A stretch of 64,000 nucleotides of DNA from Candidatus Rokuibacteriota bacterium (GTDB lineage: Bacteria; Methylomirabilota; Methylomirabilia; Rokubacteriales; CSP1-6). Where the stretch lies: assembly GCA_003221695.1 (NCBI GenBank), contig QHSX01000050.1:1-64000 (forward strand), written 5' to 3'. The stretch's first letter is position 1, and every line of letters starts with the position of its first letter. The translations under genes and the position numbers were made by a program. This document shows positions 9,349 through 47,746 of the stretch, piece after piece. Under the pieces are notes generated by a model. The model had not been told where the DNA came from. It made no database searches and worked only from the letters and a program-made list of their open reading frames with translations.

Positions 9349-9372
9349 CAGGTGCTCCTCGGGGAGGGACCG

Positions 9373-41386: not shown

Positions 41387-41563
41387 GTGGACCCACCGCT
41401 GGTGGTCGGCGCGGCGCTTGCGGTCGGGCTCGGTCTCTACTGGGGCTTGCGTAATTATCAACGCTGTCCGCACTGCGGACACATCGTGCGGCGGGTCGGG
41501 CAGGGCTGGCTCCGGTGTCGCGCGTGCGGACGGCAGTACCGGAAGGGTCTTCGCGTGCGATGA
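41387..41563 (+). CDS. Small membrane-anchored zinc-ribbon protein (58 aa)
   Basis: GTG start: VDPPLVVGAALAVGLGLYWGLRNYQRCPHCGHIVRRVGQGWLRCRACGRQYRKGLRVR; ATGA overlap with next gene; absent from the supplied ORF list. Confidence 0.6.
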   Translation: MDPPLVVGAALAVGLGLYWGLRNYQRCPHCGHIVRRVGQGWLRCRACGRQYRKGLRVR

Positions 41564-42189
41564 CTCCCGTGATCGTGCCCTCCCGGCGCACGCTCGTCGC
41601 CCTCGCCGTCGGGCTCCTCCTGGTCCTCGTGGCGGGCGGCGCCGCGTGGTTCTGGCTCGCCGCCGAGCGGAGCCGCGTCATGGCGGCGTATGCCGACGTC
41701 CTCGGTCGCATCGCTCCCGCGCAGAGGCCGCAAGCGACCCCCGAGGCCCGGGCGGCGGCGACCCGCGACCTCGAGGCCATCCTGACCCGCTATCCATCGG
41801 CCGCGGCCGCGCCCCAGGCCGCCTACGACCTGGGCAACCTCCGCTACGACGCCACCCAGTACCCGGCGGCGCGCGCCGCCTATGAGGTCGCGCTCGCGCG
41901 GGGCGCCACCGGAACGCTGCGGACCCTGGCGCAAGCCGGGGTGGGCTATGCCCGAGAGGCCGAGGGCGACTTCCTGAAGGCGATCGACGCCTACCGTCTT
42001 GCCCTTGCCGGGGTGGGGCCGGGGGACTTCTACTACGAGGCGCTCCTCGCGGACCTTGGTCGCGCCCAGGAACTCGCAGAGCAAAAGGCCGATGCGATCG
42101 CCACTTATCAGCGCATCCTTAAGGAACTTCCACAGGCCCGCCGCGCCGAGGAGATCCGGGCGCGTCTCCGGGGCCTGGGCGGTAGCTAG
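41560..42189 (+). CDS. Membrane-anchored TPR-repeat protein
   Basis: N-terminal TM, then APQAAYDLGNLRYDATQYPAARAAYEVAL tetratricopeptide-like repeats. Confidence 0.75.
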   Translation: MTPVIVPSRRTLVALAVGLLLVLVAGGAAWFWLAAERSRVMAAYADVLGRIAPAQRPQATPEARAAATRDLEAILTRYPSAAAAPQAAYDLGNLRYDATQYPAARAAYEVALARGATGTLRTLAQAGVGYAREAEGDFLKAIDAYRLALAGVGPGDFYYEALLADLGRAQELAEQKADAIATYQRILKELPQARRAEEIRARLRGLGGS

Positions 42190-42201: not shown

Positions 42202-42229
42202 ACTTCCGATAACGAGTATTATGTCAACT
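42202..42229 (+). other. dif: dif-like XerC/XerD recombination site
   Basis: ACTTCCGATAA-CGAGTA-TTATGTCAACT: 11+6+11 architecture; close to B. subtilis dif as recalled (ACTTCCTAGAA TATATA TTATGTAAACT); intergenic between convergent genes. Confidence 0.8.
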
Positions 42230-43144: not shown

Positions 43145-44440
43145 CTATCGCCGCTCGATGACACGCACCGCCTTGCCCTCGGAGCGCGGGATCGACTGCG
43201 GGGCGACGATCGTGAGCTGGACGGAGAGGCCGAGCGCCTTCCGGAGACGCTCCGCGACCCGCTGGCGAAGGCCGACGATCACGGGGTGGGCGGCGTCGAA
43301 GCCGCCGCAGCGCTCCACGAGTGCGGGCGCCGGCTCGACGTGCACCTCGAGCGTCGCGAGCGTCGGCCGCCGGTCCACGACGAGCTGGTAGTGCGGCACG
43401 AGCTCCTCGATGGCGAGGAGCGTCCCCTCCACCTCGGAGGGATAGAGGTTCACGCCCTTGATCACCAGCATGTCGTCCGAGCGCCCGCGGACCCGCGCCA
43501 TCCGCATCGAGGTCCGGCCACAGGGACAGGGTGCGTCGGTGAGCGTCGTGATGTCGCCCGTACGGTAGCGGACGAGCGGCAGGGCGCGCTTGGTCAAGGT
43601 CGTGAGCACGAGCTCCCCTTCCCTCCCCGGTCCCACAACCTGCTCGGTGGCGGGGTCGATGACCTCCGGTAGAAAGTGGTCGTCCTGGACGTGGAGCCCG
43701 TCGCGGACCTCGCACTCGCCCGCGACGCCCGGGCCGATGATCTCCGAGAGGCCGTAGATGTCGTACGCGGGGCAGCCGAGGGTGCGCTCGAGCGAGGCGC
43801 GCATGCCCTCCGTCCACGGCTCGGCGCCGAACATCCCGTAGCGGAGCCCGAGCGCGCGCGCATTCCCGCCCTCCGCGGCCAGGCTCTCGGCGATGTGGAG
43901 CACGAACGACGGCGTGCCACAGATGCCGGCGGGCGCCAGGTCTTGTAGCAGGAGCCGATGGCGCGCGGTATTGCCCGACGAGACCGGCACGACCGTCATC
44001 CCGATGCGCTCGGCGCCGTCGTGGAAGCCGAGGCCGCCGGTGAAGAGCCCGTAGCCGAAGGCGATCTGCAGGAGGTCGCCGCGGCGCGCGCCGGCCGCAG
44101 TCATCACGCGCGCCATGACCTCACGCCAGGTCTCGAGGTCGCCCGCCGTGTACCCGACGATGGTGGGCTTGCCCTTGGTGCCGGAGGAGGCGTGCAGGCG
44201 TGCGACCTCGCCGAGCTCCACGGCGAAGAGGCCGACCGGGTAGTGGTCGCGCAAATCGGTCTTCCGGACGAACGGCAGGCGCGCCAGGTCGTCGAGCCGC
44301 CGAACCTCGACGCCGCCGAGCCGCTCACGGTGGAAGGCGACGCGCTCGACCGCCCAGCCGATCGTCTCGCGGAGCCGTTCGAGCTGGAGCCGGGCGCGCG
44401 CGGCGCGCGAGAGCGTCTCGGCCTCGGCGTTCCAGATCAC
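43145..44440 (-). CDS. paaK: Phenylacetate-CoA ligase
   Basis: LHASSGTKGKPTIVGYTAGDLETW, AYDIYGLSEIIGPGVAGEC, VRYRTGDIT. Confidence 0.9.
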   Translation of the reverse strand: MIWNAEAETLSRAARARLQLERLRETIGWAVERVAFHRERLGGVEVRRLDDLARLPFVRKTDLRDHYPVGLFAVELGEVARLHASSGTKGKPTIVGYTAGDLETWREVMARVMTAAGARRGDLLQIAFGYGLFTGGLGFHDGAERIGMTVVPVSSGNTARHRLLLQDLAPAGICGTPSFVLHIAESLAAEGGNARALGLRYGMFGAEPWTEGMRASLERTLGCPAYDIYGLSEIIGPGVAGECEVRDGLHVQDDHFLPEVIDPATEQVVGPGREGELVLTTLTKRALPLVRYRTGDITTLTDAPCPCGRTSMRMARVRGRSDDMLVIKGVNLYPSEVEGTLLAIEELVPHYQLVVDRRPTLATLEVHVEPAPALVERCGGFDAAHPVIVGLRQRVAERLRKALGLSVQLTIVAPQSIPRSEGKAVRVIERR

Positions 44441-45874: not shown

Positions 45875-45887
45875 CGCCCCTGCCCGC

Positions 45888-46418
45888 TCAGGCCTTGTTG
45901 AACTTCTCGAAGTCCTCCGGCTTGATGTTCTGCAGCCACTCTCGGAGCTCGGCCGGATCGACGGGCGTGGCGGTTTCGGTGCCACGCTCGGTCTTCGCGG
46001 GCTCGGCCTCCTTCGACACCTCGAGGCTCTTCGCCTTGCGGACCACCTCTTCGTCGACGTAGATCGGCGCGCCGACGCGCAGCGCCAACGCGATCGCGTC
46101 CGAGGGCCGCGAGTCCACCGTGTACTCCGCGGCACCGAGCTGGAGGTGCAGGACGGCGAAGAAGGTGTTGTCCTTGAGGTCGGTCACGACCACCTTGACC
46201 ACCCGGGCGTCGACGGCCTCGAGGATGTTCTTGATCAGGTCGTGCGTCATCGGGCGCGGCGGGGGCACCTTCTCCAGCTCGAGGGCGATCGCGTTCGCCT
46301 CGAAGATGCCTACCCAGATCTGCAGCGAGCGCCGGTCCTCGTCGTCGCGCAAGATGATGATCGGCATGTTCGACACGGCGTCGAGCGCCAGCCCACGAAC
46401 CTTCATCTCGACAAACAT
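45888..46418 (-). CDS. Bifunctional nuclease-family (DUF151) protein
   Basis: MPIIILRDDEDRRSLQIWVGIFEANAIALELE; RPSDAIALALRVGAPIYVDEEV. Confidence 0.9.
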   Translation of the reverse strand: MFVEMKVRGLALDAVSNMPIIILRDDEDRRSLQIWVGIFEANAIALELEKVPPPRPMTHDLIKNILEAVDARVVKVVVTDLKDNTFFAVLHLQLGAAEYTVDSRPSDAIALALRVGAPIYVDEEVVRKAKSLEVSKEAEPAKTERGTETATPVDPAELREWLQNIKPEDFEKFNKA

Positions 46419-47746
46419 GGAGCCTCCTCCGCGTGCGCCGCGAGCGTCCCTCGCAGGCTGTGCGGGAGCACCTCGCTGACCCGGACGCGCGTTACGTCGC
46501 CGACGGACACGCGTCCCTGCCCGTCAAAGTTGACGACACGGTTACAGCGGGTTCGGCCGGAGAGCTCGCCCGCGTTCTTCTTCGACGCCCCGTCGACGAG
46601 CACGTCGAGCGTCTGGCCGAGGAGCCGGCGGCTCCGGTCGGCCGCCACCCGCCCGGCCACCTCGAGCAGCCGCGCGTTGCGGCGCGCCTTGACCTCGTCG
46701 CCGACCTGGTCCTCCATCTCCGCCGCCGGCGTGCCGGGCCGGCGCGAGTAGCGGAAGACGAAGACGTTGTCGTACCCGATCCCTTCCACCATCTCGAGCG
46801 TCTGCTCGAAGTCCGCCTCGGTCTCCCCCGGGAAGCCCACGATCAGGTCGGTCGAGAACGCCATCGCGGGCTCCGCGTCACGGATCTCATCGACCAGCTC
46901 GAGGTAGCGCTCGCGCGTGTACCCGCGGTTCATCCGCGCGAGCACCCGGTTCGAGCCCGACTGGAGCGGCAGATGAAAGTATTCGCACACCTTCGGCACC
47001 TCCCGCAGAGCACGGATCAACCGGGGCGTGAGGTTGTACGGGTTGGAGGTGGTGAAGCGGATCCGCTCGATCCCGGCGACCTCGTTGACCCGCTCGAGCA
47101 GCGTGGCCAGGTCGGTCGGCGGCGTCAGGTCGCGCCCGTAGGCGTTGACCGTCTGGCCGAGCAGCGTCACCTCGCGGCACCCCTCGGCGGCGAGCCGTCG
47201 CACCTCCGCCAGGACCGTCTCGGGCGGGTGACTCCGCTCCCGTCCCCGGGTGCGCGGAACGACACAGAACGTGCAGTGCTTCTCACAGCCCTCCATCACG
47301 GTGACGAACGCCCGAAGGCGAGAGGCCGACGGCGGGCGGGCCGTGATCTTCACGAGCGGCCCCTCGCCGGTCTCGAGGACGGGCCGGCGGTCTCGGCGCA
47401 CCCGCTCGACCAGCTCCGCCACACGCGCGATCGCCGGAGAGCCGAAGACGAGGTCGACCGCAGGCGCGCGGCGCTGAATCGCTCCCTGCTGGAGCTGCGC
47501 CATGCACCCCATGACGCCGATGATCAGGTCGGGCTTGCGCGTCTTGAGCTTCCGGAGCTCGCCGAGCTTCGAGAAGACCTTGTCCTCGGCCTTCTCGCGG
47601 ATCGCGCACGTGTTGACGAGGATCAGGTCAGCTTCGTCTTCGTCCTGGGTGAGCTCGTAGCGCTCGGCGCCGAGCAGGCCGGCGACGCGCTCCGAGTCGT
47701 ACTCGTTCATCTGACATCCATAGGTGATGAGGTGAAGCTTTGCCAT
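46403..47746 (-). CDS. miaB: tRNA (N6-isopentenyl adenosine(37)-C2)-methylthiotransferase
   Basis: ITYGCQMNEYDSERV; radical SAM CEKHCTFCVVPRTRGRERS; VGFPGETEADFEQTL. Confidence 0.95.
   Translation of the reverse strand: MAKLHLITYGCQMNEYDSERVAGLLGAERYELTQDEDEADLILVNTCAIREKAEDKVFSKLGELRKLKTRKPDLIIGVMGCMAQLQQGAIQRRAPAVDLVFGSPAIARVAELVERVRRDRRPVLETGEGPLVKITARPPSASRLRAFVTVMEGCEKHCTFCVVPRTRGRERSHPPETVLAEVRRLAAEGCREVTLLGQTVNAYGRDLTPPTDLATLLERVNEVAGIERIRFTTSNPYNLTPRLIRALREVPKVCEYFHLPLQSGSNRVLARMNRGYTRERYLELVDEIRDAEPAMAFSTDLIVGFPGETEADFEQTLEMVEGIGYDNVFVFRYSRRPGTPAAEMEDQVGDEVKARRNARLLEVAGRVAADRSRRLLGQTLDVLVDGASKKNAGELSGRTRCNRVVNFDGQGRVSVGDVTRVRVSEVLPHSLRGTLAAHAEEAPCLSR

Follow-up and report, generated by a model that had tools for sequence, protein, structure and literature searches.

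A predicted single chromosomal dif site near bfn and miaB in a Rokubacteriales bacterium of the phylum Methylomirabilota

The best comparisons for the site described here come from Bacillus subtilis and Escherichia coli. The B. subtilis dif site, published as ACTTCCTAGAATATATATTATGTAAACT (PMC3025954), is served by CodV and RipX and consists of 28 bp arranged as two 11-bp arms around a 6-bp centre, and the E. coli site has the same architecture and is worked by the recombinases XerC and XerD together with FtsK and the polar KOPS word GGGNAGGG. The XerS-type site, in contrast, is 31 bp long (PMC5357621). A survey of dif in 641 organisms from 16 phyla leaves Methylomirabilota unmentioned (PMC3025954), and our literature search, which was incomplete in coverage, found no paper on dif in Rokubacteria or Methylomirabilis. 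We describe here a site in a draft Rokubacteriales genome of 4.6 Mb in 109 contigs, lying in a window that comprises the first 64 kb of a 96.5-kb contig (C91). We put the probability that this site, at positions 42202-42229, is the single chromosomal dif of the bacterium and is worked by XerC, XerD and FtsK at about 0.97.

The 28-mer ACTTCCGATAA-CGAGTA-TTATGTCAACT is present on the plus strand, letter for letter as quoted in the original prediction, and has two 11-bp arms with partial dyad symmetry on either side of a 6-bp centre. The left arm, ACTTCCGATAA (42202-42212), presumably the XerC side, matches B. subtilis dif at 9 of 11 positions, and the right arm, TTATGTCAACT (42219-42229), presumably the XerD side, matches it at 10 of 11. 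The arms thus share 19 of 22 bases with the published B. subtilis sequence, whereas the centres (CGAGTA at 42213-42218 here, TATATA in B. subtilis) share two of six. Both the predicted 11-6-11 architecture and the claim of few differences outside the spacer hold up. Identity with the arms of E. coli dif is lower (15 of 22 bases), with the differences located mainly in the left arm. The site was also said to occupy a short gap between convergent genes, and it does: a plus-strand TPR/YbgF-like gene (41515-42189) ends to its left and a minus-strand PaaA/PaaC-like gene (PF05138; 42295-43116) converges on it from the right.

A short convergent intergenic gap is also where a transcription terminator is expected, and the 28-mer could in principle be a chance resemblance to dif or an unrelated AT-rich conserved element, such as part of a terminator or promoter. 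However, a dif pattern allowing up to three mismatches found no match when the window was shuffled 100 times with its dinucleotide composition preserved. The same pattern gives one match in the draft genome, a count that covers the assembled sequence and leaves assembly gaps that may hold a second dif, and the reversed pattern used as a control gives none. The uniqueness expected of a chromosomal dif is therefore seen in this genome, and it extends to its relatives. A strict search recovered dif in 39 of 80 related genomes, and a degenerate motif search, with almost no control matches, recovered it in 63 of the 80 and in 48 of the 51 of high quality, nearly always as one copy. The invariant positions among the 42 family sites are C5, ATAA, the final A of the centre and the TTATGT of the right arm, and the remaining centre bases vary; this pattern of conserved arms about a variable centre in 42 genomes, together with the single copy across the phylum, argues strongly against an unrelated element. 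In alignments with close relatives the arms are conserved amid diverged and poorly aligning intergenic DNA, and near-identical arms are present in many phyla.

One relative (G008) has two dif copies, both at contig ends (L364, G008:C43:18-45; L365, G008:C22:295-322). Each is preceded by a gene that by eye is MazF-like, with one of these two gene copies partly deleted, and the two sites share a common left flank that is diverged and partly deleted. These are probably strain variants or the product of an assembly split.

The genome encodes candidates for all three of the proteins that a site of the E. coli type would employ. A XerD gene (TIGR02225, 346.1 bits; cut-off 329.6) is located 41 kb from dif on the same contig, at approximately 83270-84154, and a XerC gene is found on another contig (C72), preceded by a reading frame that by eye resembles the end of topA. 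The product of the latter scores 329.7 bits with TIGR02224, about 5 bits below the equivalog cut-off of 335.15, although XerC is its best family. XerD and XerC were picked out by best family among the tyrosine recombinases of the genome, and there is one FtsK gamma domain (FtsK_gamma, 90.1 bits). The slightly low score of the XerC candidate, which also exceeds the cut-off of the archaeal-type XerA model, would fit a dif served by a single XerS-, XerH- or XerA-like recombinase instead of a XerC/XerD pair. We regard this as very improbable: there are two full-length Xer proteins whose best families are XerD and XerC, both fall far below the cut-off of the XerS model, and at 28 bp, arranged 11-6-11, the site differs from the 31-bp XerS form (PMC5357621).

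The orientation of KOPS sequences around the site supports a dif worked by XerC, XerD and FtsK. The word used, GGGNAGGG, was adopted from the E. coli system and not found de novo. To the left of dif the nearest copy (GGGCAGGG, 41498-41505, plus strand) and those at 9361, 9525, 17453, 21817, 26546, 27038 and 31813 point toward the site, and one at 20150 points away (8:1). To the right, the nearest pair (43616-43628, minus strand) and the copies at 45878, 46515, 47945, 50008, 50879, 51802, 57699 and 63199 point toward it, with one pointing away at 59794 (10:1). Over the whole contig the ratios of toward to away are 8:1 on the left and 13:4 on the right (p = 0.003), and 17 relatives give 56:21 and 76:14 (p = 3e-14); the pooled counts are not fully independent because the dif neighbourhood is syntenic across relatives. 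When 18 genomes are pooled, the polarity switches in the interval from -704 to +329 bp relative to dif. The pooled ratios close to the site, counted out to 2.5 kb, are 17:1 (left) and 16:1 (right).

Many words are polar in this region for other reasons. By polarity GGGNAGGG ranks 15 of 7194 words, and the polar 8-mers found de novo are mostly other, probably coding-related words; KOPS counts were therefore split by gene strand, using a rough gene caller. Within the family the bias is present on both classes of strand, with densities per 100 kb of 17.2 toward dif versus 4.9 away for coding strands and 21.9 versus 5.0 for template strands, and gene orientation thus does not explain it. In a relative of the same class (G057) the ratios are 70:25 and 60:41 (p = 3e-6), and the bias on template strands alone is not significant. 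The B. subtilis word GAGAAGGG shows a weak bias, and the polar word near this site is more of the E. coli type than of the B. subtilis type. These findings suggest a working role for the E. coli word in Methylomirabilota as well. The switch of KOPS polarity at the 28-mer, taken with its conservation and position, refutes the reading as an unrelated AT-rich element, to which we attach a negligible likelihood.

On the proposal that a cumulative GC-skew extremum should coincide with the site, a closed relative agrees and the skew of the contig itself says little either way. Around dif the skew is weak (+0.012 on the left and +0.001 on the right), the cumulative maximum of the contig lies at 76.7 kb, and the window shows no turn at dif with a signal too weak to place the terminus or to test the site. 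The relative G057 is a single-contig closed chromosome of 2,752,854 bp and the only closed one of the class; it has dnaA at base 11, identified by visual inspection of the translated frame, and dif at 1,169,464. In 60 sampled stretches of this chromosome the cumulative-skew maximum adjoins the interval that holds dif, and a finer reading places it at 1,167,945, 1.5 kb from the site.

The neighbourhood of the site shows a second level of conservation. The TPR/YbgF-like gene is its left neighbour in most of the family. To the right, the window has the PaaA/PaaC-like gene, a phenylacetate-CoA ligase-like (paaK-like) gene (43145-44440), a glycosyltransferase-type gene, bfn, encoding a bifunctional nuclease domain protein (PF02577; 45888-46418), and miaB (46403-47746; TIGR01574, 513.7 bits, cut-off 355.3), with paaA-like, paaK-like, bfn and miaB all on the minus strand, and this order is broadly conserved in the family. 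In most other Methylomirabilota families sampled bfn adjoins dif directly, with the BFN domain 130-480 bp away. Where dif and bfn share a contig (43 genomes), bfn always lies on the XerD side, and in 42 of them it is within 7 kb. In the genome G031 (G031:C8:194135-229167) bfn lies 34.7 kb from dif, compared with 3-7 kb, through some 30 kb of inserted or rearranged DNA on the XerD side, and that stretch contains no second dif. Most Methylomirabilota genomes also carry a second, weaker BFN-domain gene away from dif, which here lies outside the window (G000:C28:37500-37832).

The order and orientation of dif, bfn and miaB are common to Methylomirabilota and one acidobacterial class (L022, L286, L298, L308-L332). 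Of the 28 bfn loci in that class, represented by G080, a dif-like site accompanies 19 within 1.5 kb, and miaB accompanies 27. The dif-like matches in the class share one orientation with respect to bfn. The acidobacterial sites (L286, L308-L332) resemble the one described here in their near-identical arms, their bfn-miaB neighbours and their orientation, and differ in that the Rokubacteriales have approximately 3-7 kb between dif and bfn, occupied in the window by the paaA-, paaK- and glycosyltransferase-type genes. No dif-like site was found at sampled bfn loci of Nitrospirota (0 of 29), Gemmatimonadota (0 of 26) or the phylum of G082 (0 of 28). The placement of bfn and miaB is most simply explained by inheritance of the gene order around the terminus. 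It seems to us unlikely that dif and bfn, placed in both phyla so that bfn faces the XerD arm, stay together for a functional reason beyond inherited order; if they did, the predicted nuclease would act on terminus or septum DNA. No paper linking the BFN domain to Xer was found in the literature search, which had incomplete coverage.

These neighbours also bear on the question of whether the site is a pdif or IMEX scar, that is, a Xer site derived from a plasmid, phage or dif module and not one for resolution of chromosomal dimers. Attachment sites of this kind have the same Xer-site architecture as the 28-mer, and a plasmid, pZKME1 of Macrococcus epidermidis, carries a sequence that fits the dif pattern exactly (L119, 2282-2309) and is possibly a pdif. 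The site described here differs from them in being present in a single copy in the genome, in having fixed chromosomal neighbours, including miaB, across the phylum, and in the absence of a module. No second site was seen in the flanks of 18 genomes, nor were there dispersed copies beside mobile modules, the finding that the original prediction had set against a chromosomal dif, and the corresponding site in G057 is on a closed chromosome at the skew turning point. The single copy, the chromosomal neighbours and the lack of a module largely refute a pdif or IMEX origin, and we consider it most unlikely. Genomes of Sinobaca (L057/L081), Marinococcus (L055/L130) and Planomicrobium (L127/L151) each match the dif pattern at two separate locations, and these paired matches are possibly IMEX or plasmid sites.

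The identification as a chromosomal dif, proposed from the letters of the site and its surroundings, is thus supported by its sequence, its uniqueness and conservation, the genes for the two recombinases and the FtsK gamma domain, the convergence of KOPS on the site from both sides, and the skew turn in a closed relative. With E. coli it shares the common architecture, two recombinases, an FtsK gamma domain and convergent GGGNAGGG, and the mechanism we propose is drawn from the established systems (PMC5357621): arm binding, the sequence of strand exchanges, the activating role of FtsK and the resolution of dimers are all modelled on E. coli and B. subtilis. In this scheme, FtsK at the closing septum would load on KOPS, the polarity of which would steer it toward 42.2 kb from both sides, and where sister chromosomes had been fused by a crossover the two dif copies would be brought together at the septum. 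XerC would bind the left 11-bp arm and XerD the right, and XerD, activated by the FtsK gamma domain, would carry out the first exchange of strands within the 6-bp centre. XerC would then perform the second strand exchange, yielding two monomers.

A dif site is an ordinary and expected component of a chromosome, and we found no earlier description of one for the phylum Methylomirabilota. Its recognition has several consequences for this group. First, it provides a replication-terminus anchor for an uncultured phylum whose known genomes are mostly fragmentary. Second, the dif motif allows contigs from the terminus to be positioned and oriented in draft assemblies from Methylomirabilota. Third, a dif neighbourhood with bfn and miaB that Methylomirabilota share with one acidobacterial class is unexpected for a terminus region.
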